Shown: in pieces, positions 8,934 through 23,629 of the stretch
Layout of the letters: each line of letters starts with the position of its first letter
Numbering within the stretch: the first letter of the stretch is position 1
NCBI GenBank assembly: GCA_945861755.1
Contig: CAMAVQ010000001.1
Coordinates: 1-64,000, forward strand
Direction of reading: 5' to 3'
Length of the DNA stretch: 64,000 bases
Origin: Gemmatimonas phototrophica
Lineage (GTDB): Bacteria; Latescibacterota; UBA2968; UBA8231
Notes under the pieces: generated by a model
Database searches by the model: none
What the model was told of the DNA's origin: nothing
What the model saw: only the letters and a program-made list of their open reading frames with translations
Position numbers and translations under genes: made by a program

Positions 8934-9407
8934 ATGCTGAAATTGAAGAGGAAAGATCTGGAGCGGCTGTACGGCCAAGCCCTGGCCGAGTACCCGGCGG
9001 AGTGCTGCGGAATCCTGAGCCTTGGCAGGGGCGAAGAATACGCACAGGTCCATCTCTGCCAGAACATCCAGGACCGGCTTCACGACGAAAATCCCGTTGA
9101 CTACCCGCGCACCTCGCGCACCGCCTACTTCATCGACCCTAGGGAACTGAGCCGGCTCATCGCCGGCGCCGAGCAATCGGGTGGGCAAATCTCGGGTTTC
9201 TACCACTCCCACATCGATTGCCCGGCGTACTTCTCCGCAGAGGACAAAAAGCGGGCCATGACCATGATGGGGGACGAGCCCGATTTCCCCGACGCCGCCT
9301 ACCTGGTCCTGTCGGTGGATCAGGGAAAGGTGCAGGCGTCCAAGTGCTTCGCCTGGGACGAGGGTGTGCGCGATTTCGCCGAGGTGGAGCTGGTGGTGGT
9401 GGACTAA
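8934..9407 (+). CDS. mec: Mec-like JAMM/MPN+ zinc metalloprotease
   Basis: The 157-residue protein is a single MPN domain with a complete JAMM signature: E in PAECCGIL, then HSH with S and D in the pattern H-x-H-x7-S-x2-D (HSHIDCPAYFSAED). In Mycobacterium, Mec cuts the CysO-cysteine adduct to free cysteine; in other bacteria related proteases trim extra residues from sulfur carriers to expose Gly-Gly. Both jobs are possible here, because the CysO-like protein in this locus ends in one residue beyond Gly-Gly. RBS GAGGAGAGGGC precedes the ATG. Confidence 0.85.
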   Translation: MLKLKRKDLERLYGQALAEYPAECCGILSLGRGEEYAQVHLCQNIQDRLHDENPVDYPRTSRTAYFIDPRELSRLIAGAEQSGGQISGFYHSHIDCPAYFSAEDKKRAMTMMGDEPDFPDAAYLVLSVDQGKVQASKCFAWDEGVRDFAEVELVVVD

Positions 9408-9417
9408 CCCGCCGGCC

Positions 9418-11271
9418 ATGAGATTCGACTGGCGCGGGCCCCGGGCCACTGTCATAGTTGCCTTGGCGGCCGCCGGCCTGTACCTCAACACCTGGGGCCA
9501 CGGCTTCCACTACGACGACTTCCATTCGCTGGTCAACAACCCCCACATCCGCACCCTGGCCGAGGTCCCGGCCTTCTTTCTCGATCCGACCCTTTTTTCC
9601 GCCAATCCCGAAAGCGCCATGTACCGCCCGGTGCTGCTGGTCTCCTACGCCCTCAACTATGCGGCAGGGGGGCTGCAGCCGGCCGGGTACCACTTGGCCA
9701 ATGCCCTGATCCACGGGATCAACGCCGGCCTGGTCCACCGCCTGCTCTTGGCGCTGGGGCAGGGGGGGCTGGCCTTGCCGGCGGCTTTCATCTTTGGCCT
9801 GAGTCCGGTCAACGCCGAGGCCGTCAACTACGTCAGCAGCCGCTCAGAATTGCTGATGGCGAGCTTTTTCTTGCTGGCCTGTCTGGCCCATCTGCGCGGT
9901 GGCCGAGGGTGGGGGCCGGTCGGGTTGGGTGCCGGGGTTCTGGCCTTGCTGACCAAGTCGGTGGCCGCGGTCCTGGTCCCGGTCTTGGCGCTGTGCCAGT
10001 GGTTCAGGGGAGGCTGGCTGGCGTTGCGGCGTGGCTGGCCAGCGCTCTTGGCCTTTGCGGGTTTGGTGTTGGGGTATGTGTTCTTCACCCGGGAACTGGT
10101 GGGGCAGGCTCTGCTCGAACCCATCCGTCCGCACGGGGTGCAGTTGTGGACCCAGCTCAAGGCGGGGGTCTACTATCTTTTGCTGCTGGTCATGCCGGTC
10201 CACCTGAGCGCCGAGCACCAGTTCTCCCTGGCCCGGAACTCATATGATGGGGCGGTGCTGGCGGCAGCGGCGCTGTTGCTGTCGCTGGTCCTGGCGCTGT
10301 GGCCCTGGAAACGAGGCCGTTTTGCCGGGGCCTGGGCAATCCTGTTGCTGCTGCCTGCGGCGCTGGTGCCCCTGGTAGTGCTGGTCAACGAACACCGTCT
10401 CTACCTGGCGGGCATCGGTTTTGCGCTGAGTCTAGCCTGGGCCCTGGGCCAGTTGGCTGGCCGGCGCGGCCCAGTGGCCTGGGGGGCGATTGGTGTGTAT
10501 TATATTGTGCTCGCGCTGCTGGTTCTGCAGCGCAGCGTGGCCTGGGTCGACGAGTTGAGCCTGTGGCAGGATGCGGCTCGCCACGCCCCCCTGATGCTCA
10601 AGCCCCACCTGCGCCTGGCAGACGCCCTGGCCGCGCAAGGACGCCTGGCCGAGGCCGAGGCCGCCTATCTGCAGGCGCTGGCCCTGCGGCCCCAGCATCC
10701 GGGGGCGCGCAACAACCTCGGGTCTCTGTATATGAAACAGGGCCGGCTGCCCGAGGCCGAAGCCCAGTTCGCGGCCCTGCTGCAGTCTTCGCCGGACAAT
10801 ATCCCGGCCCGACTCAACCTGGGGGCGGTGCAGATGGCCCAGGGGCAATGGCAGGAAGCGGCCCTGCAGTACCGTCAGGCGCTGGCTGCGGGCGAAGCTG
10901 GGGGGGAAGCCGAGGAGAAACTGGGCCTCATCGCCCTCAACTATCAGCAGGACCCGTACCAGGCGCTCGGCCATTTTGACCGCGCCCTGGCCCGGCACCG
11001 GCACCCCCAGTTGCTGGTCCTGCGCGGGGTGGCCCTGCGGGCCCTGCAGCGACCGGCCGAGGCCGAGGAGGCTTACCGCCAGGCGCTGAGTCTGGACGCC
11101 GGCAGCCTCGAAGCTTGGTTCAACCTGGGCAATCTCTGCGCCGCACAGGGTGACCGGTCCGGGGCGGCGGCGGCGTACCGCCAGGTGGTGCAATTGGCAC
11201 CGGCCAGCGGGTTGGGCCGGCGCGCTGCGGGGGAACTGAATAAGATCGACGGGTCTCAAATACCACCATAA
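9418..11271 (+). CDS. TMTC-like GT-C membrane protein with TPR tail (paralogue 1)
   Basis: A 617-residue protein with ten or so hydrophobic segments (~10-400) and about six TPR units (~400-610). The first extracytoplasmic loop has HGFHYDDFHSLVNNPHIR, with the Asp-Asp expected for GT-C glycosyltransferases, followed by MYRPVLLVSYALNY, NYVSSRSE and LVNEHRLY. This pattern and order match eukaryotic TMTC O-mannosyltransferases, which transfer mannose from a lipid donor to secreted proteins. The substrate is unknown here. The ATG at 9418 lies 10 bases after mec with no clear RBS. Paralogues are at 11621 and 16125. Confidence 0.75.
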   Translation: MRFDWRGPRATVIVALAAAGLYLNTWGHGFHYDDFHSLVNNPHIRTLAEVPAFFLDPTLFSANPESAMYRPVLLVSYALNYAAGGLQPAGYHLANALIHGINAGLVHRLLLALGQGGLALPAAFIFGLSPVNAEAVNYVSSRSELLMASFFLLACLAHLRGGRGWGPVGLGAGVLALLTKSVAAVLVPVLALCQWFRGGWLALRRGWPALLAFAGLVLGYVFFTRELVGQALLEPIRPHGVQLWTQLKAGVYYLLLLVMPVHLSAEHQFSLARNSYDGAVLAAAALLLSLVLALWPWKRGRFAGAWAILLLLPAALVPLVVLVNEHRLYLAGIGFALSLAWALGQLAGRRGPVAWGAIGVYYIVLALLVLQRSVAWVDELSLWQDAARHAPLMLKPHLRLADALAAQGRLAEAEAAYLQALALRPQHPGARNNLGSLYMKQGRLPEAEAQFAALLQSSPDNIPARLNLGAVQMAQGQWQEAALQYRQALAAGEAGGEAEEKLGLIALNYQQDPYQALGHFDRALARHRHPQLLVLRGVALRALQRPAEAEEAYRQALSLDAGSLEAWFNLGNLCAAQGDRSGAAAAYRQVVQLAPASGLGRRAAGELNKIDGSQIPP

Positions 11272-11571: not shown

Positions 11572-11620
11572 TCCCGGCCGTGCGGCGGGGTACTCCAGAC
11601 GGGTGCCTGGCTCCTTTTTA

Positions 11621-13588
11621 ATGGGCCTCTTTACTTCGCCAGCACGTTTCCTGGGCCTGGTGGCGTTGCTCTTGCTGGGCGTCTACGCCGGCTCCTTTCG
11701 CAACGGTTTTCACTACGACGACTTTCATTCCCTCGTCGAAAACCCGCACATCCGGGATTTGGGGAACTTAGGGCGCTTTTTTGTCGATCCCCAGCTCTTC
11801 TCCTCGCAGCCGGAGCGGGCCATGTACCGACCGCTGCTGCTGGTCAGCTACGCGTTCAACTACCAGGTTTCCCAGTATGGGCTGCCCGGGTACCACCTGG
11901 TGAACTGGGGCCTGCACCTGGTCTGTACCTTCCTGGTTTACCTGCTGGGGCGTTCGCTCTTGGGTTCGGCCCTGGCACCGGCCCTGGGGGCATTGTTTTT
12001 TGCGCTGCACCCCCTGCAGGTCGAGGTGGTCAACTATATCAGCAGCCGCTCCGAGACCCTGGCGGCCTGCGGCTGTCTGGGCAGTTTGGTGGCCTACGCG
12101 TACTGGCGGCGGGGAGGGCCGGTTTGGCTCTATGGGGTTTCGCTGGGGGCGCTGGTCTGCGGGCTGCTGGGCAAGTCCACGGCCCTGGCCTGGCCGCTGG
12201 TCTTAGCGCTGTACGAGTGGTCGCAGCCGGCGGTGGGTCCGCGGCGCTGGCGCTTCCATCTGGGCTACTGGCTGGCAGCGGGTCTCTACCTATTATTCAC
12301 CCAGTCGATGGTGGCCAAGGCCCTGGGGCAACCGGTGCGCCCCCTGGCGGTGCAATTCTTCACCCAGCTCAAGGCCGGGGTCTATTATATATACCTGACC
12401 GCCGTGCCCCTGCACCTGAGCGTTGAGCACCCTTTCGCCGAAGCCCTTTCTCTGTTCAGCCTGCCGGTGGTGCTGGCGACGCTGATGCTCGGGTCGCTGG
12501 GCGCGGTTTGCTGGCACCTGGGAAAGGGGGGCGCATCGACTTGGTTGCTGGCCGGGGGTGCGGTGCTGGCGCTCTTGCCGGCCTCATTGGTGCCCCTGAA
12601 CGTGCTGGTCAACGAGCATCGCTTATATGGATCTCTGGTTTTTGTCTCGCTGGGCCTGGCAGCCGTGGTGGTCCGGCAGGACCGGCTGGCCTGGGCCGGG
12701 GTCGGGGTGCTGCTGGTGTTGGGACTGCTGGCCCACCAGCGCAGCCAGGTGTGGCGCGACGAATTGAGCCTCTGGCAGGATGCCGTGGCCAAAGCCCCAG
12801 GTATGTACCGGACCCATTTGCACCTGGGAGGGGCGCTGGAACAGGAGGGGCGCCTGCCCGAGGCCCTGCGCAGCTACCAAGGGGCGGCGCAACTGGCCCC
12901 CGAAGCGGTGGAGGCCCACTACAATCTGGGCAATGCCCTGCGCCAGGTCGGCCGTTTCGACGAGGCGGCGGCGGCCTATGCCCGGGCCCTGGCGCTGGAA
13001 CCGGATTTCTTTCAGGCCCAGGTCAACCTGGCGGCGCTGTACCTGCAGGCCGGCAAGGCCGCCCAAGCCGAACCCCTGTTGCGGCGGGCCGTCCAGTTGC
13101 GCCCGGAAGTGGCACAGACTCACCTGCAACTGGGCGTGTTCTGCCGGACTCAGGGGTTGCTGGCCGAAGCGGAGCGCGAGTACCAGCAGGCCGCGGCGCT
13201 GCGTCCCGATCTGGTGGAGGCCTATTTCAATCTGGCCAATCTGTACTTCGATACCGACAGGTACCCGCAGGCGATCCAGGCGTACCAGCGGACTCTGGCC
13301 CTGGGCCCCCACGGGGATGCCTATTACAATCTGGGTGATCTGTACCTGCACCAGGGGGAGTACCAGCGCGCCGCCGAGATCTTTGCCCAGGGCCTGGCGC
13401 GTGTTCCCGGCACAACCAAGCTCTCCTATGGTCTGGGGCGGGCGCAGGACGGGCTGGGGCTGGGTCGCGAGGCCGCCGCCAGTTACCGCACTTTTCTCAA
13501 CAGTAACCAGGCACCCCCGGCTTTGGCAGAACAGTTGCGCCAACGCCTGCAGACCCTCGAAAACATCACTTCCCAGGAGCCAAGATGA
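11621..13588 (+). CDS. TMTC-like GT-C membrane protein with TPR tail (paralogue 2)
   Basis: At 655 residues this is the largest of three paralogues. It shares NGFHYDDFHSLVENPHIR, MYRPLLLVSYAFNY, HPLQVEVVNYISSRSE, LLGKSTALAWPL and LVNEHRLYG with the others, then has about seven canonical TPRs (for example AHYNLGNALRQVGRFDEAA) from residue ~415 to the end. The GT-C-type membrane part predicts lipid-linked sugar transfer outside the membrane, and the TPRs predict partner binding. Start uncertain: the ATG at 11621 or an in-frame GTG at 11603, both with poor ribosome sites. Its stop overlaps the cysK start. Confidence 0.75.
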   Translation: MGLFTSPARFLGLVALLLLGVYAGSFRNGFHYDDFHSLVENPHIRDLGNLGRFFVDPQLFSSQPERAMYRPLLLVSYAFNYQVSQYGLPGYHLVNWGLHLVCTFLVYLLGRSLLGSALAPALGALFFALHPLQVEVVNYISSRSETLAACGCLGSLVAYAYWRRGGPVWLYGVSLGALVCGLLGKSTALAWPLVLALYEWSQPAVGPRRWRFHLGYWLAAGLYLLFTQSMVAKALGQPVRPLAVQFFTQLKAGVYYIYLTAVPLHLSVEHPFAEALSLFSLPVVLATLMLGSLGAVCWHLGKGGASTWLLAGGAVLALLPASLVPLNVLVNEHRLYGSLVFVSLGLAAVVVRQDRLAWAGVGVLLVLGLLAHQRSQVWRDELSLWQDAVAKAPGMYRTHLHLGGALEQEGRLPEALRSYQGAAQLAPEAVEAHYNLGNALRQVGRFDEAAAAYARALALEPDFFQAQVNLAALYLQAGKAAQAEPLLRRAVQLRPEVAQTHLQLGVFCRTQGLLAEAEREYQQAAALRPDLVEAYFNLANLYFDTDRYPQAIQAYQRTLALGPHGDAYYNLGDLYLHQGEYQRAAEIFAQGLARVPGTTKLSYGLGRAQDGLGLGREAAASYRTFLNSNQAPPALAEQLRQRLQTLENITSQEPR

Positions 13589-14502
13589 AGAAAGCCCGCA
13601 ATGCCCTCGAACTGATCGGCGCCACTCCCCTGGTCCGCCTCAACCGGGTGGTGGACCAGGGCGGGGCCGAGGTCTGGGCCAAGATAGAAGGGACTAACCC
13701 GGGCGGCAGCGTCAAGGACCGCATCGCTCTGGCCATGGTCGAGGCAGCCGAGGCGGCCGGTCAGCTTAAACCTGGCAGCACCATTGTCGAGCCCACCAGC
13801 GGCAATACCGGTATCGGCCTGGCCCTGGTGGCGGCAGTCAAAGGATACAAGTTGATCGTCACCATGTTCGACACCGCCAGCCGCGAGCGCCGCCTGCAGA
13901 TGCAGGCCTACGGGGCCGAGGTGGTCCTCACCCCGGCGGCCGAGGGCATGCGGGGGGCCATCGACAAGGCCCTCGAACTGAAGCAGCAACACCCCGAGTA
14001 CTTCCTGCCTCAACAGTTCACCAATCCGGCCAACCCGGAGATCCACCGACGCACCACCGGCCCAGAGATCCTCGAGCAGATGGAGGGGCAGGTCGATGCT
14101 TTTGTGGCCGGGGTGGGTACTGGTGGCTCGATCACCGGGGTAGGAGAGGCCCTCAAGGCGGTGCTGCCGCAGGTGCGTATTATCGCGGTGGAACCCCAGG
14201 GGTCGCCGGTGCTTTCGGGAGGGGAACCGGGCTTCAGTTATATAGAAGGGATCGGGGCCGGCTTCGTGCCTCAGGTGCTCAACCGCGCGGTCATCGACGA
14301 GGTGCGCACCATAAGCGACGACGACGCCTACAGCATGACCCGCCGGCTAGCCAGGGAAGAGGGGTTGCTGGTGGGCATTTCGGCCGGGGCCAATGTACAC
14401 ATGGCCGGAGTGGTGGCCCGGGAATTGGGGCCGGGAAAGAAGGTGGTCACCATCCTGTGCGACGACGGCCTGCGCTACCTGAGCACCCGGGTTTTCGAGT
14501 AG
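13585..14502 (+). CDS. cysK: Cysteine synthase, CysK type
   Basis: A 305-residue fold-type II PLP enzyme with K44 in NPGGSVKDR, the substrate loop PTSGNTGIG and the phosphate-binding GTGGSITGVG. The block SYIEGIGAGFVPQVLN is the CysK-type signature, so this is the O-acetylserine sulfhydrylase of the pair, distinct from the CysM-like enzyme at 7962. The ATG overlaps the stop of the preceding TPR protein (ATGA), so the two are translationally coupled. It converges on the minus-strand paralogue with only 9 bases between stop codons and no visible terminator. Confidence 0.93.
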   Translation: MKKARNALELIGATPLVRLNRVVDQGGAEVWAKIEGTNPGGSVKDRIALAMVEAAEAAGQLKPGSTIVEPTSGNTGIGLALVAAVKGYKLIVTMFDTASRERRLQMQAYGAEVVLTPAAEGMRGAIDKALELKQQHPEYFLPQQFTNPANPEIHRRTTGPEILEQMEGQVDAFVAGVGTGGSITGVGEALKAVLPQVRIIAVEPQGSPVLSGGEPGFSYIEGIGAGFVPQVLNRAVIDEVRTISDDDAYSMTRRLAREEGLLVGISAGANVHMAGVVARELGPGKKVVTILCDDGLRYLSTRVFE

Positions 14503-14511
14503 CCCACTACT

Positions 14512-16125
14512 TCAGGGGCCAAATCGTTCCTTGAGGGCGGGGTCCAGCTGAATGGCCCGGCCCAGGGCCAGGACGGCCTGCTCGCGCCGCCCGCTGTCGC
14601 GGCAGGCCAGCCCCAGATTGAGCCAGATCTCCGCCTGCTCAGGGGCGCGCGCCAGGGCCTGCTGGTACAGGGCGATGGCTCGGTCGCTTTGCCCCTGTCC
14701 CGCATAGACCAACCCCAGGTTGTTGAGCGCTTCCACCATGCCCGGCTCGGTTGCCAGCGCCTGTTCAAACGCCGCAGCGGCCTTTCCCAAGGCGCCCTGT
14801 TCCCGGTAAACCGCTCCCAGATTGACCTGGGCCCGCGTATAGGCTGGGCTGAGGGCTACCGCTTTTTCATACGCCTGGCGGGCGTGTTCCAGGTCACCTG
14901 CCTGGTGGTAGGCGTACCCTAGGTTGTACTGGGCTTCGGCCATCAAGGGCGCGCGCCGCACCGCGTCCTGCCACAAGGTCAATTCATCCCGCCACACCCC
15001 GGCCCGCACAAAACACAGCACGCCCAGCAACAGGCACAGGACCCATAGCGGCCAGTGCGCCCGGCTCTCCGTCAGCCAGTGGGCCGCCAGCAAAGCCATG
15101 CCGAAGAGGGCGAGGTACAGGCGGTGGTCATTTACCAAGATGTTGAGCGGGATCACCAGCGTGGGCGAGAGGCTGAGCAGGAACCAGCCCAGGGCAAAGG
15201 GGACCCAGGGGGAACCGCTCCGCCAGGCCCACCAGACCAGGCTGAGGGAAACCAGCAGACCCAGCAAGGGCAGGGCGGCACCGAGACTGGCTGAGGTGAA
15301 AAACTGCTGCTGGATATTGAGGTGTACCGGCATGATGCTCAGGAGCAGGTAGTGGACCAGGGCCTTGGCCTGGGTGGCGACTTGGGAGGAGAAATCGCGG
15401 ACCTGGGAGGCCTTCTCGATGCCCTGGCCCGAGAGTGCGGCATAGAGAAAGACATAGAGACTGCTCAGGATCCAGTAGGGCAGGTGTGGTTTCAGCGGCC
15501 GGCGCGGGGCGAGGAGGTAGTGATGGAGCAGCAGCAGCAGGGGCAGGGCCAGCGCCGTGGACTTGCTCAACAACCCCAGGGCGAAGGCCAAAAGGGACAG
15601 AGGGAGCCATAGCCGGCGGGCCGGTGCGTCCAGCGAATGGAGATAAGCCGAAAAGGCGGCGAGGCTGAAGAGGCCGGCCATGGATTCGGAGCGGCTGCTG
15701 ATATAATTGACCACCTCAGTCTGCGCCGGGTGCAGGCCGAAAAGCAGGGCACCTGCCAGGGCCGGCAACCGGGCAAAACCCAACTGGCCGAGCAGGTGGA
15801 AGACCAGCAGGGTCGCCAGGCAGTGGATGGCCAGGTTGAAGGCCAGGTACCCGCGCGCCGTATAGCCGCTCAGGGCATAGTTAAAGGTATAGGTGACGAC
15901 GACCAGGGGCCGGTACATGGCGTAGGTGGGATTTTCGGAGAAGGTGCGGGCGTCGGTGAAAAAGGAGGGCAGGGCCTCCAGGCTGCGGACATGCGGGTTT
16001 TTTAAGAGGGAGTGCTCGTCGTCGTAATGAAAGCCGTTGCCCAGGCTGCGGACGTGGAAAACCAGCAGGACGAGGAGCAGGAAGAGGTAGGGGACCACTC
16101 CCTGGCGGGCGAACCCCACAGCCAT
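14512..16125 (-). CDS. TMTC-like GT-C membrane protein with TPR tail (paralogue 3)
   Basis: A 537-residue paralogue on the opposite strand to the other two. It keeps NGFHYDDEHSLLKNPHVR, MYRPLVVVTYTFNY, VVNYISSRSE, LLSKSTALALPL and LVNDHRLY, and has about four TPRs after residue ~390, so the TPR tail is shorter. The ATG abuts the T-run of the rpsT terminator, leaving no room for a leader from rpsT unless the terminator is read through. An internal GTG about eight codons later is an alternative start. Role as for the other copies: predicted lipid-donor sugar transferase. Confidence 0.72.
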   Translation of the reverse strand: MAVGFARQGVVPYLFLLLVLLVFHVRSLGNGFHYDDEHSLLKNPHVRSLEALPSFFTDARTFSENPTYAMYRPLVVVTYTFNYALSGYTARGYLAFNLAIHCLATLLVFHLLGQLGFARLPALAGALLFGLHPAQTEVVNYISSRSESMAGLFSLAAFSAYLHSLDAPARRLWLPLSLLAFALGLLSKSTALALPLLLLLHHYLLAPRRPLKPHLPYWILSSLYVFLYAALSGQGIEKASQVRDFSSQVATQAKALVHYLLLSIMPVHLNIQQQFFTSASLGAALPLLGLLVSLSLVWWAWRSGSPWVPFALGWFLLSLSPTLVIPLNILVNDHRLYLALFGMALLAAHWLTESRAHWPLWVLCLLLGVLCFVRAGVWRDELTLWQDAVRRAPLMAEAQYNLGYAYHQAGDLEHARQAYEKAVALSPAYTRAQVNLGAVYREQGALGKAAAAFEQALATEPGMVEALNNLGLVYAGQGQSDRAIALYQQALARAPEQAEIWLNLGLACRDSGRREQAVLALGRAIQLDPALKERFGP

Positions 16126-16164: not shown

Positions 16165-16419
16165 CTAGGCCAGTTTCTGAACCAGTTTGGTAAGGCGGGA
16201 TTTGTAGCGGTCAGCGGTTTTCTTATGGATCACGCCTTTTTTGGCGGTTTTGTCGATCTGTGAGGCGGCTTTGACCAGCGCCAGCTTGGCCACGGCCGGG
16301 TCGGCGGCGGTGCGCACCGCTTTGATGGCCGAGCGCATGGCCGTGCGGGTAGCGCGGTTGCGGATCTGGGCCTTGCGGCTCTGCAGCAGACTCTTCTTGG
16401 AGGCTCTAAGTTTTGGCAA
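16165..16419 (-). CDS. rpsT: Small ribosomal subunit protein bS20
   Basis: An 84-residue, Lys/Arg/Ala-rich helical protein of normal S20 length, with SRKAQIRNRATRTAMRSAIK and a C-terminal HKKTADRYKSRLTKLVQ that match the family. It binds 16S rRNA early in 30S assembly. The start codon is TTG, with AGGAG 7 bases upstream. E. coli rpsT also starts with UUG, which is linked there to autoregulation; the same may apply here. It has its own terminator and a long AT-rich upstream region in which I could not fix a promoter. Confidence 0.96.
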   Translation of the reverse strand: MPKLRASKKSLLQSRKAQIRNRATRTAMRSAIKAVRTAADPAVAKLALVKAASQIDKTAKKGVIHKKTADRYKSRLTKLVQKLA

Positions 16420-16550
16420 CGCGGGGCTCCTTTTCTGGGGGTGCGGGCAAAAAATTCCAGTGTAGCTACAATCTCAGCAAGGACAGTAATTGGCGTTATT
16501 GTATTAAAAACAACAAATTAAATTAGAAGTAATACGTGATACAACGTGCT

Positions 16551-16566
16551 TGGCACATGCCTTGCT
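16551..16566 (+). promoter_or_regulatory. Sigma-54 (-24/-12) promoter
   Basis: TGGCAC, five bases, TTGCT, with the GG and GC elements 12 bases apart, which matches TGGCACG-N4-TTGCW at all but one core position; a pyrimidine precedes it as in the consensus. The predicted start is near 16577. No open reading frame follows within 600 bases on this strand. Confidence 0.55.
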
Positions 16567-16693
16567 TAAACCTGCTGCCAAGTCCATGTCCCTCACCAAG
16601 GCCTCATCGTCTGGCGCGCTCCCTAAGACTCTTGCGGGCCTGGCGATGAATATCCCCACCCAAAGGGACACAACAGGGACTGAAAGCGGAAAA

Positions 16694-16721
16694 GAGCCGG
16701 TTCCCCCCTAGGAACCGGCTC
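16694..16721. terminator. Strong hairpin, possible terminator
   Basis: A perfect 11-bp stem (GAGCCGGTTCC with GGAACCGGCTC) with a 6-base loop. On the minus strand TTTT follows directly, which is terminator-like; on the plus strand a loosely T-rich stretch follows. It could end a short sigma-54 transcript or a minus-strand transcript. Confidence 0.45.
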
Positions 16722-17184
16722 GCATATTCCTTCAATCTTTCCAATATAAACCGCCGTCTCGGAACTGGCAAGGCGCGGCGGGCCGGCAGCGAGAAATTAA
16801 GTCCTCAAAAAAAGGCTCCAACATCCGATAAAGTAGTACAGCAGCGCCCTAAGCCCACAGACCATCGATCGGAAGACAGCGCCAAAAAACAGAGAAGGGA
16901 AGGGGTCGTGTGGGTTCAAGTTCCGGAAGGAAAATAGTTCTGAAGTTCGCAATTTGGCTGCCGATAAGAAGAAATAAGGCCAATAGTTGTCCACGGATAT
17001 AGAGCTGTGAAAAAACTTGTTCCCCAAGGTAGTGTTCAACATGAGATGAAAAAACAATCGCCATATCCATCCACATTTGTTTGCCGCCAGATGGCAAGGA
17101 GGTGTCGCATAACCTTCAAAAAACCAGACTCAAGGACCCGTAGGGGCGGGTCCGATGGTCTTTTGCTACGAAGGGCCTGGCCCC

Positions 17185-17223
17185 CCGTCGATAGGGAAGT
17201 CGACGGTGGCCGGCTGCTATATT
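17185..17223 (+). promoter_or_regulatory. Palindrome next to a TATATT box, upstream of the giant secreted protein gene
   Basis: CCGTCGA (17185-17191) and TCGACGG (17200-17206) form a perfect 7+7 inverted repeat with 8 bases between. TATATT lies at 17218-17223, where a -10 box would give a start near 17230. No TTGACA-like -35 box is present; the palindrome occupies that position, so it could be an activator or repressor site. Confidence 0.4.
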
Positions 17224-17269
17224 CCGCTTTCAGTCATCCAAGTTGTGTCCATGGAAGGAGCGTCGAAAT

Positions 17270-20200
17270 ATGAGTCCAAAGCTTAAGAGTTTTCTCGCGT
17301 TCGTTCTCATTTTCGGGTTGGCGACCCTGGCGTCTGCCCAGCCCATCTTTGAGAATCGGACTCCGGTGGGGTTCTCCCCCTCGGACAGCAGCAGCAGTGC
17401 TGCTTTTGTGACCGACAAGGACATCACGGTCCTTGTCGATCTAAACAAAGCCGCCAATTCGACCAACCCAGTGACCGGGAATTTCCAGAAGGTCGAAAAA
17501 GCGGTGCCCTATTTTAGCACCGCCAAGACCGCCGGGTACATGTCCCAGGCCATCGCGGTGGACGCCAATGGCGTGATCCACCGCGCCTGGATTCAGGCGC
17601 GCGGCAATGCGGTGACCGGCTTCGGCACCTCCGCAGACGCCACCACCACTCCGGCCTATGGTGTGGTCTACGCCAAGAGCTTCAACGGCGGCAAAACCTT
17701 TACCGACACCGTAGCAGTATCGGGGTCGCTGCGTTTTGACATGATCACTACCAACCTCGCCATGACCAGCGGGTTTTCCACGGTCGACATGGTGCTGGAC
17801 AGCAAGGGCAATCCGCGCATCGCCTATGCTATGGACCAGTCGCCGGACGGTATAAATGGTGTGAATGTGGCTGCGGATGGGTTTCAGACCTATCGCTACA
17901 GAAGCGGCAGGTTAACCCGCCAGTTCGATAATATCTATTTCAATTACTCCAATGACGGCGGCAGTACCTGGTTGCCGGCCAACAGCGCAGTGGTCATCAA
18001 CGACACCTCGACCACAACCGCCGCCACCTGGCCTGGCCGCAAGTGCGCCTTCCCGCGCCTTGGGGTTACGTCCACGGACGACATCTTCGTCGCCTATGAA
18101 CGGCAGACGGGCACGGCCACCCAGGACATCATGCTGGCCAAGATGGATGCCGACAGCCTCAAGTCCGGCTCGGCCCAGCAGGTGCGGATCGGCTCGCTGG
18201 GCACGGTGGGCAGCACCGGCGGGGTGCGCATCGATCTCGATGCTTCCTCGGGCGTTTCTCCGGATATTGCCATCGGCGACGATGACGCCCTCCATGTGGT
18301 CTTCTTTAGCCCAATAGGTGTCGCGTCTCCGATTTACCACAAGACGGTGCCCGCCACTTCTTGGAGCAATGTCGGTCTCACCGGCTGGAACCAGAATGTG
18401 GTGGGGGCCACTGTGGGTAGTTTCAACACCAGCACTACCAACCTGGGCATAGATGCCACCGCGTTCTTAGGAGATAACGTTCTTTTTGCTCTTGGCGCCG
18501 GGAAACTACATCTCTTCCCGACGGTGGTGGTGGACAAGGAGCGCACCCCGGACCGGGTGTACATCTTGTGGAAGCACACCGACGCTCTGGCAGCTTCTCC
18601 GGGAGCGGATGAGAACATCGCTTACAACACCTTCAGTTACGATGGCTCGACCGGCGGTGCGTCCACCTGGGGAACCACCCAGTACGCCTTCCCGACCGGC
18701 GCCGGCACCGCCTACTACAATGTCGGTGGCAGCGGCCTGTTCCAGCAGGGCAGCATCTATCAGGTCGAAGGGTTCTGGGGGTTTGTCGACCGGGTCTCTG
18801 CCTGGGTAGACCAAGCCGTCCCCGGGTCGCGGGGTGATCTGCACATCGTCTTCTCCGGCGGTGCCAGCGAGAAGGGGCCGCGCGCCCTGGGCGGCAGCCT
18901 GGCAAGCGCCAGTATAGCTGGCAAGGCCAATTCCCTCTATTATTCCCGCTACAACGGCACCGAATGGGAACTGCCCCAGGTCGTGGCTTCGGCGCGCAAC
19001 AGCAGTGTGGTGGCCAGCACCTCGACCACCTACGACGACGGCGTGCAGTCGACCAGCCGCGATCTGTTCTCGCCCGACATCGCCATGCGGTCGGGAGACA
19101 GCAATGTGTACCTGACCTTCGTGGGCGGCTCACCCCGGAGCCCTGGTGTAGGTATCGGTAACAGAGCTAGGCGCTTCTTCAACACCACTGCCTCCCAGTA
19201 CGCCAACACCCCTGGGCGGGGTTTTGCGACCCTGCACCAGACCAACGTCCAGCCCTTGCCGTACTTCAAGGTCATCGGCAGGGTGGTGACCTACTCCGAT
19301 ATCTCGGTACCCACCGGCGCCAACAAGTACCTGTTGACCTATAATCCGATCAACCCGCAGGCGGCAGCCCTGAAGAACCTGGTTTCTGTCACGGTGCCAG
19401 ACAATGTCAATGGGTCGGGCATCGGCGGCGCTACCCCAGGTTCCTCGGCGGCACCAGGCGGTTTCCTCACCGGCCAGTGGCGGCGGGTCGGCTTCGGCTC
19501 TCTGGGGGTGACTTCGCTCAATCCCGGAGACGCCGGTGGCATCTTCAAGGGGGCGGTCAGCGCCTCTGAAGCTAACAATGACAACGGTATCTTTGAAGGT
19601 AACGTCGACGACTCCGGCACCCTCGGCTTTGCAGAGTGGGGTGACGACGACGACAAGACCGGCCTGATGGTCAAGCTGAATGTGCTGGGCAGCGACTCGG
19701 CCAGCAACCTCTTTGTCATCCAGGCCAGTTCCTCGGCCAGGGGTGGTGGGCTGGGAACCGTCACTACTACTGGCGGCGTGTTGACCGACTCTTCGACCCA
19801 GAGCATCAACGTGGATACCTCGAGTAGCGTTGGTGCCAACTTTCAACCGCGTGATGCCACCTTCGTCCAGGGGATCACCACCGAATACGGGCTCGCCGGA
19901 GCGGCTGCTAATGCCGTCAACTTTGCGCCCAACGGCTCCTACTTCTGGATGGGCGCCAACATCAACATCGTGGCGACCAATGTCGCCCCGGTGGTGCAGG
20001 TCACCGATCCAGATGCTACCACCGCCTCGTCGGGTTTCTCCAACGAGACTGCGGGCATCAAATACATCCTCTTCGACTCGGACACCAATGTCCTGACTTC
20101 GACCACCGGGTTGCAGATGGAGCTGTACGCTTATCCCGACAAGGGCCTGAGGAATGTGCAGGATGTGCGCACCTTTGGTCTGCTGATCGTGGACGAGCAG

Positions 20201-23200
20201 GACAACACGACGGTTAATGCTGCCAGCGGTTCCAACGACTTCACCGAGGGCACTTCCGCGTCGAACACGCAGAGCTATACCTGGGATGATCCGGGTGCCG
20301 CCCTGCGCGCCCTGGGCTTTGCCGCCCTGCCCAAGACGTCGGATGGACAGTATTACATCTATCTGGTGGCCGACGACCTGGTCAATCCGCCGGTCTACGC
20401 GGTGAGCGCCGGTCCGCTCCGGGTGCGGCATATCCCGCTGGTCAAGAGCCTGGCCCCGGTGACCAGCGATACCGTGGACACGGGCGAAATCTCCAACCTG
20501 AGCAAGACCAATCCGTACAAGATCAACTTCCTGGTGAAGGACTACGACGACAACGCGCAGGTGCGGCTCTTCTTCTCCACCAATGCCAGCATCCCGCGCG
20601 ACAGTGTCAAGGTCACCGGTACTTTCCCGAGCTTGACCCTCGGCCTGGGCGGGGCTTCGGCGATCCAGAAGTCTGACACCCTGCGCTCGGAAGAGGATGT
20701 CAACTTCACCTTTGACGTCACGACTCAGGGCGCCAGCCGGGACTCGATCCTGGCTCAGGGTAGCTACACCATCTACACCGTGGTCTCCGACGGCGATACC
20801 ACGATCCTGAGCGCTTCGACCAAGGCCCTGGCCGTGCGGCATTCGCCTTCGTTCGAGTTCACCGCGCCGCTGACAGGCACGGTAAACAAGCTCAACAGCA
20901 CCCAGCAGGACCGCTACACCCTGGAGTGGCAGCGCGGCCGTTCGGATCGCGATCTGGACGGCAACGCGATCATCTCGCTCTACTACATCGGGCTCGACCC
21001 GCAGCGCAAGAACTTCAGCGGCACGGATTCGACGGCGCTGATCGACAGCGGTGCAGTGTTGATCAAGGGCAGTCTGCGCGAGAACGATGAGGGCGGCGGC
21101 GACCAGTTTGTCTGGGATTTCCGCAATCCGCCCAGCGCGCTGCCCAAGACCTTCCGGCCCAAGCCAAACGGCACCTCCGGTGGTCAGCCGAATGTGTACC
21201 AGGTTGGCCGCACCACGGATACGGCCTGGGTGTATGCGGTGATGCGCGATAGCCTCAGTAACACCCGGGTACAGGTGGGTGGGGCGGTGCTGCTGCTGGG
21301 TTCGCAGCAGACCCCCGGATCGCCGGCGCCCAAGGTCACCATGATGACACCGCCCTCGGGTGGCCAGATCGTCAAGAACGGTGATATCGTCCGCCTCGAG
21401 TGGGATTCCTTCCTGATCGACGACGGCACCGGCACCGACGACGCGTATCTGCGTCTCTACGCCGCACCCAAGGGGTTGTACTCGACCCTGACCCAACTGG
21501 AAGGCAACAACACTGCCAACGGCGGCCAGGTGATCCTGGTCAACAGCATCAAGGGCCGCGACAACGTGTCCAGCCAGATCCAGACCATCCGCGAGAGCGA
21601 TCCCAAGTTCTTCATGTGGGATACCAAGACCCATTCCTTCGGCATCAGCGGCACGCCGATCGAATACGACATCTTCATCGCCGGCAGCATGGACCCGCAG
21701 TTCGGTGACAATATCTTTGTCAACGGGCGGCTGGACTCCATCGCCACCGGCATCGGTTCTCAGGCGCAGCGGGCCGTGTTGTCCAAGGCCCCGGGTGCCC
21801 TCAAAGTAGTGGGCACTGACCCGATCTTCAGCATGGAGCTGGGACCGGGCTCAATGACCGCTGCATCGGGCGACACCCTGACCATGGACGTGTTGGTCAA
21901 CTCGCAGGGCAGCAGCGTCAATCTGATGGATCTGCACCTAAATGTGCCGCGCCGATACTTTGAACTGATCGACATGGACGCTTCCACGGCCGGACTCCAG
22001 CCTTTCAAAGACTCCACCGGTGCCTTCCAGGCGGCCAGCACCATCGCCCAGAACGACACCACGGTTGGCACGGACCAGTTCTACGAGCTCAACTTCGTGG
22101 AGAGTGTCATCCTGGGTGAGGCCATCGGCCGCACGGTAACACCCTTTGACAGCTCCCAGGTGGCTGCCCGGATCAAGCTCAAGGTCAAGCGCTACACCGG
22201 CGGTGCGTCGATGGATACCACGATCGACTGGTCCATCGAGTCGGGTCGCAAGAGCGCCCTCTACCAGAACAACCAGTCGATGGCCACCTCGACCAGGGAG
22301 GCCACCATCAAGCTGGTGCCTCGGGCCCGCATCATCGCCACGGTGCCCCTGGAAGGTCGCTCCAATGACTACTCCGACAGCCTGGACGTACACTTGCGCA
22401 AGATCGGCAGCACCAACGACATCACCGACACCTCGTACATCGCCACCAATGATGTAAAGCAGGTGCGGGTCAGCGGTGTCTTGCAAGATTCGGTGAATGT
22501 GGTCAGCAACTCCTTTGGTACCTTCACCCTCACCGAGGTCCCACCTGGGACCTATGAATTGACGGTGAAGGCCAGGGGCTTCATCTCGGGCCGCAGCGAT
22601 ACGCTCCGGCTCTTCAACGGCAGCACGGCCAACATCAGGCCGATCTTCGGGTCGGATGCACTGGGCGCGCTCTCACCCGCTACTGAACTGGCGGCCCTGC
22701 GCGGCGGCGATGCCACAGGCGACAATCAGGTAGACATCGCCGATGCCAACCTGATCTTCAGCCGCTGGAACCTGACTCCGTCCAGCCCGACCTTTGTGCG
22801 GGACGCGGACTTCAACAAGGACAACGTCATCAACTCGCTCGACCTGATCTTGGTGACCACCAACTTCGGCAACGATGGGTACGGGGCACCGCCGGTCTTC
22901 AAGCGCACCAGCATCGCCGGCGACAACTCCTCTGCCCTGGTGGAGTTGCAAGGGGTCGAAGAGGTCGAGAAGTGGTGGGCTGGCCGGACCTTTGAGGTCA
23001 AGGCCAAGGCCACCGGGATGCAGGATGTGGCCGCTTATGGCTTCACCCTGACCTACGATCCCGAGAAGGTCAAGCCGCTGGGCGACAGCCAGGCGGTCAC
23101 TGAGGGCGGGATCTTTAAGGCCAATCCGCGTGGAACGCTCTTCTACCAGCAGGTGCAGCCCGGCGTCATCACCGTCGGTGCCGGCCGCGTCGGCCGCGAG

Positions 23201-23629
23201 TGGTCCGCCAGTGGCGAGGCAGAACTGGCCGTCATCCGCTTTGTCGCACTGGGGGATGATCCTGGTCAGCTCGAAATCGCCTCCGGCGACCTGGTGAACA
23301 GCGATTTCCGCGGGGTGTCCATGCGGGTGAAGAAGGCGCAGTCGCTGCCGATGGCGGCCGCATTGCACCAGAATTACCCGAACCCCTTCAATCCTTCAAC
23401 CGAGATCCGCTTCGACCTGCCCACCGCGCGGGAGGTGAAACTGACCATCTACAATCAGGTCGGTCAGTCGATCCGCACCCTGGTGGACCGGCGGATGAAG
23501 GCCGGGGCGTACGCCCTGAAGTGGGACGGCACCGACAATGCTGGACAGGGAGTCGCCACTGGCGTCTACTTCTACAGCATCGAGGCTGGTGACTTCTCGC
23601 AGATCCGCAAGATGACCCTGGTCAAATAA
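17270..23629 (+). CDS. Giant secreted multidomain protein with type IX-style sorting domain
   Basis: This 2119-residue protein has a signal peptide (MSPKLKSF... ending LASAQ). The N-terminal ~550 residues carry sialidase-like Asp-box motifs (SNDGGSTW, SFNGGKTF). Several Ig-like stretches follow, then a cohesin-like segment (~1515-1640), a carboxypeptidase-regulatory-like domain (~1685-1800), a dockerin-like pair of calcium loops (GDATGDNQVDIADAN and DADFNKDNVINSLD, ~1811-1870), a second cohesin-like domain (~1904-1997) and a C-terminal FlgD/Ig-like sorting domain (HQNYPNPFNPSTEIRF ... KMTLVK, ~2027-2119). It is probably cell-surface or secreted. The ATG at 17270 is preceded by AAGGAG; the longer frame from 17243 spoils the signal peptide. 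Whether the propeller is an enzyme is unknown. Confidence 0.85.
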   Translation: MSPKLKSFLAFVLIFGLATLASAQPIFENRTPVGFSPSDSSSSAAFVTDKDITVLVDLNKAANSTNPVTGNFQKVEKAVPYFSTAKTAGYMSQAIAVDANGVIHRAWIQARGNAVTGFGTSADATTTPAYGVVYAKSFNGGKTFTDTVAVSGSLRFDMITTNLAMTSGFSTVDMVLDSKGNPRIAYAMDQSPDGINGVNVAADGFQTYRYRSGRLTRQFDNIYFNYSNDGGSTWLPANSAVVINDTSTTTAATWPGRKCAFPRLGVTSTDDIFVAYERQTGTATQDIMLAKMDADSLKSGSAQQVRIGSLGTVGSTGGVRIDLDASSGVSPDIAIGDDDALHVVFFSPIGVASPIYHKTVPATSWSNVGLTGWNQNVVGATVGSFNTSTTNLGIDATAFLGDNVLFALGAGKLHLFPTVVVDKERTPDRVYILWKHTDALAASPGADENIAYNTFSYDGSTGGASTWGTTQYAFPTGAGTAYYNVGGSGLFQQGSIYQVEGFWGFVDRVSAWVDQAVPGSRGDLHIVFSGGASEKGPRALGGSLASASIAGKANSLYYSRYNGTEWELPQVVASARNSSVVASTSTTYDDGVQSTSRDLFSPDIAMRSGDSNVYLTFVGGSPRSPGVGIGNRARRFFNTTASQYANTPGRGFATLHQTNVQPLPYFKVIGRVVTYSDISVPTGANKYLLTYNPINPQAAALKNLVSVTVPDNVNGSGIGGATPGSSAAPGGFLTGQWRRVGFGSLGVTSLNPGDAGGIFKGAVSASEANNDNGIFEGNVDDSGTLGFAEWGDDDDKTGLMVKLNVLGSDSASNLFVIQASSSARGGGLGTVTTTGGVLTDSSTQSINVDTSSSVGANFQPRDATFVQGITTEYGLAGAAANAVNFAPNGSYFWMGANINIVATNVAPVVQVTDPDATTASSGFSNETAGIKYILFDSDTNVLTSTTGLQMELYAYPDKGLRNVQDVRTFGLLIVDEQDNTTVNAASGSNDFTEGTSASNTQSYTWDDPGAALRALGFAALPKTSDGQYYIYLVADDLVNPPVYAVSAGPLRVRHIPLVKSLAPVTSDTVDTGEISNLSKTNPYKINFLVKDYDDNAQVRLFFSTNASIPRDSVKVTGTFPSLTLGLGGASAIQKSDTLRSEEDVNFTFDVTTQGASRDSILAQGSYTIYTVVSDGDTTILSASTKALAVRHSPSFEFTAPLTGTVNKLNSTQQDRYTLEWQRGRSDRDLDGNAIISLYYIGLDPQRKNFSGTDSTALIDSGAVLIKGSLRENDEGGGDQFVWDFRNPPSALPKTFRPKPNGTSGGQPNVYQVGRTTDTAWVYAVMRDSLSNTRVQVGGAVLLLGSQQTPGSPAPKVTMMTPPSGGQIVKNGDIVRLEWDSFLIDDGTGTDDAYLRLYAAPKGLYSTLTQLEGNNTANGGQVILVNSIKGRDNVSSQIQTIRESDPKFFMWDTKTHSFGISGTPIEYDIFIAGSMDPQFGDNIFVNGRLDSIATGIGSQAQRAVLSKAPGALKVVGTDPIFSMELGPGSMTAASGDTLTMDVLVNSQGSSVNLMDLHLNVPRRYFELIDMDASTAGLQPFKDSTGAFQAASTIAQNDTTVGTDQFYELNFVESVILGEAIGRTVTPFDSSQVAARIKLKVKRYTGGASMDTTIDWSIESGRKSALYQNNQSMATSTREATIKLVPRARIIATVPLEGRSNDYSDSLDVHLRKIGSTNDITDTSYIATNDVKQVRVSGVLQDSVNVVSNSFGTFTLTEVPPGTYELTVKARGFISGRSDTLRLFNGSTANIRPIFGSDALGALSPATELAALRGGDATGDNQVDIADANLIFSRWNLTPSSPTFVRDADFNKDNVINSLDLILVTTNFGNDGYGAPPVFKRTSIAGDNSSALVELQGVEEVEKWWAGRTFEVKAKATGMQDVAAYGFTLTYDPEKVKPLGDSQAVTEGGIFKANPRGTLFYQQVQPGVITVGAGRVGREWSASGEAELAVIRFVALGDDPGQLEIASGDLVNSDFRGVSMRVKKAQSLPMAAALHQNYPNPFNPSTEIRFDLPTAREVKLTIYNQVGQSIRTLVDRRMKAGAYALKWDGTDNAGQGVATGVYFYSIEAGDFSQIRKMTLVK

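Follow-up and report, generated by a model that had tools for sequence, protein, structure and literature searches.

A predicted sigma-54-dependent small RNA beside rpsT in Latescibacterota, complementary to the leader of a neighbouring giant protein gene

A sigma-54 promoter motif lies in the gap between rpsT, encoding ribosomal protein S20 (16165–16419, minus strand; Pfam PF01649), and a long divergent plus-strand gene with its ATG at 17270, which raises the question of what is transcribed from it and on what such a transcript would act. The window, that is, the whole stretch of 64,000 nucleotides that was analysed, belongs to a genome of 4.39 Mb in 255 contigs (G000), whose closest relative by rpsT is G001, a Latescibacterota record (Baikal). 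Sigma-54 promoters carry GG at -24 and GC at -12 with fixed spacing. The motif TGGCAC-ATGCC-TTGC (TGGCACATGCCTTGC), found by motif scan at 16551–16565 (+), fits this consensus and has the exact -24/-12 spacing given in a preliminary description of this DNA; the start is predicted at about 16577. It is the single exact match in the 64 kb. With up to one mismatch allowed, two matches were found in the window against 2.87 expected from shuffling, so the motif by itself is unconvincing, in agreement with the earlier judgement that a lone motif is suggestive rather than proof.

What places the motif above chance is its conservation at one position relative to rpsT. This gene was searched in 60 related genomes and found in 54 of them; in the family of the window's genome, which comprises 25 genomes, it was found in 21 (not in G006, G009, G012 and G013). 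At 13 of these 21 loci (G000–G005, G007, G008, G010, G011, G014, G015 and G019) TGGCAY-N5-TTGC is placed divergently at -125 to -144 from rpsT. It was absent from the first 400 bases of the remaining eight (G016–G018 and G020–G024), as well as from the first 900 bases of ten rpsT loci read outside the family. A chance motif is ruled out by this conservation across the family loci. A search of the window's genome for the factors that such a promoter needs, proposed in the preliminary description, returned both: RpoN (one match, E 8.7e-58) and, for Sigma54_activat, 33 matches, some of them fragments, with 29 strong ones at E below 1e-18.

Downstream of the promoter a 3' motif, GGGRCRCRNC-N(4-9)-TGAAA(A)GCG, was found about 100–115 bp past it in all 12 complete loci, the thirteenth promoter locus (G010) being cut by a contig end before the motif; in the window it reads GGGACACAAC...TGAAAGCGG (16665–16689, +). 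A scan for promoter plus 3' motif over contigs of 84,980 species gave ten matches, every one at this locus (G001–G005, G007, G011, G014, G015 and G019). All of them are Latescibacterota-type MAGs, labelled Candidatus Latescibacterota (six), Gemmatimonadetes bacterium (three) and Candidatus Handelsmanbacteria (one). A covariance model built from the five RNAs of the genus (R1) did not find the RNA in other genera; run unfiltered on 12 loci it scored 14.4, 12.5 and 11.7 bits at the right place (L036, L032 and L040, respectively), and a wrong place in L045 scored more, at 16.6 bits. The case across genera therefore rests on synteny and on the pattern.

Two other origins for the element were dismissed. 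Searches of Rfam 15 gave one tRNA and nothing else for the whole window, only mir-268 (E 1.5, far under the cut-off) for 16420–17290 at E up to 5, and no match for five related loci at E up to 1, which speaks against a known RNA family. A mobile or plasmid repeat was set aside as well, since neither a plasmid search nor a viral search gave a match, and a search of the own genome, self aside, returned only fragments of 33 bases or less (E 0.011 or worse). In those parts of the Latescibacter literature accessible as full text, no report on such a small RNA or RNA motif was found; the 2015 Latescibacteria genome paper, as far as accessible, mentions flagella genes, and the word 'sigma' is absent from its main text.

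The reading that best accounts for this locus, with a probability of about two in three, is a sigma-54-dependent base-pairing small RNA of about 120–150 nt that acts on the neighbouring gene of its own strand as a riboregulator. The possible sigma-54 small RNA of the preliminary description is thus supported, given the presence of rpoN and activators and the conservation of promoter and RNA core. Sigma-54 RNA polymerase would make this RNA when one activator fires. We infer its transcription, a discrete 3' end, its pairing in cells and an effect there.

The predicted RNA covers 16577–16725 (+), with an uncertain 3' end, and folds with a z of -4.6 against shuffles, a value partly owed to its 3' hairpin. 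With that hairpin removed, z is -1.8 in the window's genome and varies from -4.9 to 0.0 across the 12 genomes, being near 0 in G005, G011 and G019. The genus consensus consists of an outer helix P1 (AGTCC/GGACT), a helix P2 (TGTCCC/GGGACA) and a central hairpin. In the window the 5' arms of P1 (16581–16585) and P2 (16587–16592) have their partners at 16677–16681 and 16665–16670, respectively, and the central hairpin occupies 16604–16649, with the loop UCCCUA at 16620–16625. Across the genus 6 of the 37 pairs change on both sides (5 of the 16 in the central hairpin), and as many are seen in 4 of 500 shuffles, in a test biased in favour of the structure, which was derived from the same sequences; sliding the partners drops the pairing from 93.5% to 40–47%. 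P1 is invariant within the genus, and covariation is therefore silent on it there. In other genera both helices can still form from different sequences, such as GCCAA/TTGGT in G005 and GACAAGTT/AACTT-GTC in G015; on cofolding, P1 or P2 is not the preferred pairing in G007, G008 and G019. The region of the central loop is C-rich in all loci, with UCCCU in the genus and CCCCC in the other genera, and is complementary to G-rich loops of the target's leader described below. The RNA of G005 (L021/L075), an assembly 86% complete, looks much diverged and is possibly a relic or a retargeted copy.

A GC-rich hairpin (16694–16721, +), perhaps the 3' boundary or a stabiliser, follows the 3' motif. Its arms, GAGCCGGTTCC (16694–16704) and GGAACCGGCTC (16711–16721), form the perfect 11-bp stem reported earlier. 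A GC-rich hairpin starting with AGCCGG stands after the motif in the genus and in G007, G008, G011, G015 and G019, and a different sequence takes its place in G005; automatic detection of perfect arms gave a 3' hairpin at 7 of the 12 loci. Conservation in relatives, the other check called for in the preliminary description, was accordingly seen for the promoter, the RNA core and, mostly, a hairpin. The idea of an ordinary intrinsic terminator was abandoned: no run of five T follows the hairpin in the genomes examined, the best being TTTT four bases on (G011), and the terminator scan of the window did not list 16694–16721. The stem also lacks the U-tail that ends Hfq-type small RNAs. Since no proper U-tract follows, the 3' end is unproven, and room is left for a long leader acting in cis, which is weighed below. 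The opinion that no reading frame follows the promoter fails in the strict sense, a 41-codon ATG ORF running from 16586, and stands in substance. This ORF is present in G000, G001 and G004, stops after 20 codons in G002 and G003, where it is broken, and could not be found in any of the seven genomes folded from other genera; as it is unconserved, noncoding is the better reading, and a small protein was rejected.

The T-run of the hairpin had been described as better on the minus strand, which is right for the window's genome (TTTT); by eye it is missing in G007, G008 and G011, and it is therefore not a conserved minus-strand terminator. A structure conserved on the minus strand, with rpsT as the gene that it precedes or attenuates, would accommodate this TTTT and also a sigma-70-like TTGCCA-N17-TATATT at 16771–16743 (-), conserved by eye in the genus, that reads across the small RNA towards rpsT. 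Such a minus-strand function is nonetheless very unlikely. All 12 complete loci combine the plus-strand sigma-54 motif with the 3' motif, z without the hairpin is more negative on the plus than on the minus strand in all 12 genomes (by a small margin in G008 and G011), the minus-strand T-run is not kept, and the element is missing beside rpsT in 8 of the 21 family genomes.

The partner of the small RNA, absent from the preliminary description, was found in the leader of the gene that follows on this plus strand. The repeat finder placed an inverted copy of 16666–16697 at 17216–17250, and the 3' motif is complementary to 17224–17250 of this leader. The pairing site there, CCGCTTTCAGTCATCCAAGTTGTGTCC (17224–17250, +), is unique in its own genome with up to three mismatches and ends one base ahead of the Shine-Dalgarno block TGGAAGGAG. 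The blocks of the RNA for which leader pairing is proposed include GGACACAAC and TGAAAGCG. In the proposed duplex the partners of UGAAAGCGG and GGACACAAC would be CCGCUUUCA and GUUGUGUCC, immediately ahead of the Shine-Dalgarno. A two-block pattern run over 47 genomes of the class gave 22 matches, of which nine are the RNA, eight the leader and five others; the reversed control gave five. The five others (G006, G008:C701, G014:C404, G017 and G027) were set aside, their number being that of the control, after the context of the G006 match had been read and G008:C701 and G014:C404 had been scanned for motifs. The G003 leader was missed by the pattern and was added for the pairing analysis. RNA and leader are both present in nine genomes of five genera (G000–G004, G007, G008, G011 and G015), and the 3' motif is complementary to the leader in all nine.

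The duplex between the last 46 nt of the RNA and the leader has energies of -37.7 to -49.9 kcal/mol in the nine genomes. Single-base shuffles (200 per RNA) gave means of -19 to -27, and none of them reaches the real duplex in any genome. Own pairs of RNA and leader average -46.1 and swapped pairs -43.1, a small loss of stability that points to modest specificity between genomes. In block GGACACAAC/GTTGTGTCC G008 has CAGC/GCTG for CAAC/GTTG, a two-sided compensatory change, and G004, G007 and G011 have one-sided A-to-G changes, each retaining a G.U pair. Block CTGAAAGCG/CGCTTTCAG has a mismatch in G003 and a bulged A in G008. A pairing of RNA and leader near the ribosome-binding site is predicted, and sequence comparison shows the complementarity conserved in nine of nine genomes.

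The same inverted repeat (16666–16697/17216–17250) could be read as a DNA element, either two sites of one DNA-binding protein or the ends of an invertible segment, since each arm is an inverted copy of the other and both are conserved. We consider this about as improbable as the minus-strand function. The spacers differ between the arms, a single base separates the leader arm from the Shine-Dalgarno block, all eight genomes with both arms on one contig show them in the same orientation, and the one-sided differences in GGACACAAC keep G.U pairs for plus-strand RNAs only.

The leader itself shows a conserved fold in the alignment of eight sequences. Hairpin 1 (17134–17153, +), with the loop UAGGGG (UGGGGG in other genera), and hairpin 2 (17185–17206, +), with the loop AGGGAA, have three and two, respectively, of their six pairs changed on both sides, and the AGGGA of the second loop is common to the eight leaders. 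The Shine-Dalgarno block (17252–17260, +) is invariant in 8/8, and CTTTCA at 17227–17232 can pair with TGGAAG of this block; these six pairs are invariant in all eight and covariation is therefore uninformative for them. Over the 18 pairs of the leader structure 95% of cells pair and five pairs change on both sides, a number that 14 of 500 shuffles reach. By eye, one change is shared by the C-rich loop of the RNA and leader loop 1, with U-A in the genus and C-G outside; in G008 leader loop 1 is not predicted open. A kissing contact between the C-rich loop and the G-rich leader loop, which possibly helps pairing, is a lead, not proof, drawn from this one change between the genus and the rest. 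The stretch 17105–17260, with its two hairpins and G-rich loops (URGGGG and AGGGA), might also serve as a site for CsrA or for a ligand; it has no Rfam match. We considered control by CsrA, which occurs in 14 of the 47 genomes, all of them FliA-positive, and AGGGA/AUGGA sites exist in the leader.

The gene behind this leader, the predicted target (17270–23629, +), encodes a protein of 2,119 aa. Above the Pfam cut-off it contains dockerin, carboxypeptidase-regulatory-like and FlgD-Ig-like domains, and the C-terminal sorting domains CHU_C and Por_Secre_tail are seen below the cut-off only. From this domain content, the sub-cut-off sorting domains included, the target is probably a secreted surface protein. 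Relatives of its N terminus occur in 14 of the 47 class genomes, all within the family; the target was not found in G005 and G014, though both have the RNA. At 11 of 12 loci of its paralogues TGGCAY-N5-TTGC lies upstream, and none of the 12 has a complete small RNA site or a CCGATA box. One of these loci in the window's genome (L129, G000:C25:20500–22200) and 11 related paralogue loci probably represent a second sigma-54-controlled locus of this protein family.

As to the direction of control, CUUUCA of the free leader can pair with the Shine-Dalgarno and the small RNA would compete for it; hence, within the main reading, the folding models make us lean slightly towards activation of translation over repression. 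When the small RNA site was blocked, accessibility of the Shine-Dalgarno rose in all nine genomes, beyond random blocks in seven of them; in the window's genome it went from 0.10 to 0.19, not above the random control of 0.20. In dimer folds of small RNA and short leader, the mean probability that the two sites are paired to the RNA is 0.77–1.00, and 5–24 kcal/mol are gained over the monomers. The Shine-Dalgarno is freer there than in the short leader alone in six of nine genomes and partly paired to the small RNA (0.28–0.70), which fits repression equally. Given these mixed accessibilities, the direction is a lean and no result. Repression, in which the small RNA of the main reading would silence the giant gene by keeping ribosomes from binding, perhaps at times when the sigma-54-dependent paralogues are on, is a tentative variant at less than even odds, whose share is included in that of the main reading. 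The duplex lies directly against the Shine-Dalgarno, part of which is paired to the small RNA in the dimer fold, and the paralogous giant genes with the sigma-54 motif at 11 of 12 loci would suit such an alternation; against it, block GTTGTGTCC stops one base before TGGAAGGAG in 9/9 leaders, and blocking the site makes the Shine-Dalgarno more accessible in 9/9, above the control in seven.

The mRNA of the target appears to have a promoter of another kind. The FliA (sigma-28) consensus is TAAAGTTT-N11-GCCGATAA, and a site matching 14 of its 16 letters, TGAAGTTC-N11-GCCGATAA, was found at 16941–16967 (+). Boxes and spacing are identical in G002, G003 and G004, and G001 has GCCGAAAA; TGAAGTT and a 12-base spacer are seen in G008, G011 and G015, with GCCGATAG at the end in G011, and G007 has TGGAGTTC-N11-GCCGATAT, so the -10 box is altered in G001, G007 and G011. 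The evidence for pairing is independent of this variation. Genome-wide the promoter variant of the target is not enriched (34 matches against 31 in the control, up to two mismatches), and the target is the only exact match of its own pattern. A second, weaker site, TCAAAAAA-N11-TCCGATAA at 16805–16831 (+), was seen by eye, with similar ones in the four genus relatives, and falls under the scoring limit of 11/16. The two FliA-like sites stand in tandem ahead of the giant gene, the weaker one in the genus only.

These promoters bear on the strongest rival explanation, a cis version in which the sigma-54 transcript continues past about 16721 and enters the giant gene, the element forming the 5' domain of a leader of about 700 nt that folds back on the ribosome-binding region. 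The missing run of five T would suit it, and so would the arrangement of the motifs of RNA and leader, which lie on the same strand about 550–660 nt apart in the eight genomes that have them on one contig (in G002 they are on two contigs). We hold it to be unlikely, though less so than a DNA element or a minus-strand function: a GC-rich hairpin mostly comes directly after the motif, and the downstream FliA-like promoter together with the leader hairpins would give an mRNA without the 5' domain.

The distribution of flagellar genes is in keeping with the main reading. FliA was found above the cut-off in 18 of the 47 genomes and in 13 of the 25 of the family. The window's genome is among these, and its FliA gene has others nearby that we take, by eye, to be flhA, flhB, fliP and fliM; FliA was not found above the cut-off in three RNA-bearing genomes (G005, G008 and G014). 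Flagellin is present in 15 of the 25 family genomes, and in 12 of the 13 with the RNA (not in G005) against none of the eight without it, with a Fisher p of 4e-5 that is uncorrected for phylogeny, seven of the eight RNA-less genomes being one genus. G005 has the RNA, and flagellin, FliA above the cut-off and the target were not found in it. By comparison of the genomes, then, promoter, genus helices, 3' motif and C-rich loop are conserved and the RNA goes with flagellin. Among 21 scored flagellin loci five have promoters with at least 12 of the 16 FliA letters, against 1.4% in single-base shuffles; some of the five are orthologues, and nine of 30 loci were dropped because the start was not recognised. 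The flagellin loci of the family differ in promoter type. Seven flagellin-domain matches occur in the window's genome, two each on C49 and C77 and one each on C138, C146 and C66.

A more specific form of the main reading, which we regard as rather doubtful, is a coincidence gate of two sigma factors. The sigma-54 small RNA and the FliA mRNA of the adjacent genes would have to meet, by a kissing loop and a split duplex of about 20 bp, before the giant secreted protein of the flagellar programme is translated, and its paralogues would answer sigma-54 directly. If the main reading is right, the two flagellar sigma factors would be linked after transcription, and the giant secreted protein would be an unsuspected part of the motility programme of an uncultured phylum. 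Because a candidate target accompanies the RNA, a laboratory host would allow joint tests of promoter, seed and target.

Several known systems share parts of this arrangement. According to the portions consulted of PMC7073468, GlmZ of Escherichia coli is a trans-acting RNA that activates glmS translation by base-pairing, and its decoy homologue GlmY has a sigma-54 promoter; the likeness, should the RNA of the window activate, lies in the raising of translation by base-pairing. In contrast with GlmZ/glmS, here a single RNA has a neighbouring candidate target, organism and target are others, no Rfam match exists and activation is only a lean. In Campylobacter jejuni, as described in the accessible text of PMC11187230, CJnc230 (FlmE) is an RpoN-dependent small RNA inside the flagellar hierarchy, processed from the flgE mRNA and repressing flgM and Cj1387c. 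The RNA of the window resembles it in its sigma-54 motif and in tracking flagellin; it differs in that this motif is its own and intergenic and that its complement is the adjacent FliA-type mRNA. For the flagellar-regulon small RNAs UhpU, MotR, FliX and FlgO of Escherichia coli, which are sigma-28-dependent and UTR-derived in the sections seen of PMC10578931, the promoter logic is the opposite, since here the RNA has the sigma-54 motif and the target the sigma-28-like one.

In their promoters the Qrr RNAs of Vibrio are close to the RNA described here, as they are intergenic, sigma-54-dependent and base-pairing. They exist in several copies, depend on Hfq and have many targets, whereas the RNA of the window was seen at one locus per genome and is without a U-tail. 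GlmZ opens the Shine-Dalgarno hairpin of glmS.

On the other side of rpsT the window contains three similar large membrane-plus-TPR proteins (9364–11271, +; 11603–13588, +; 14512–16125, -), the last being the one that was domain-scanned, with a cysteine-synthase-like gene (13585–14502) amid them.
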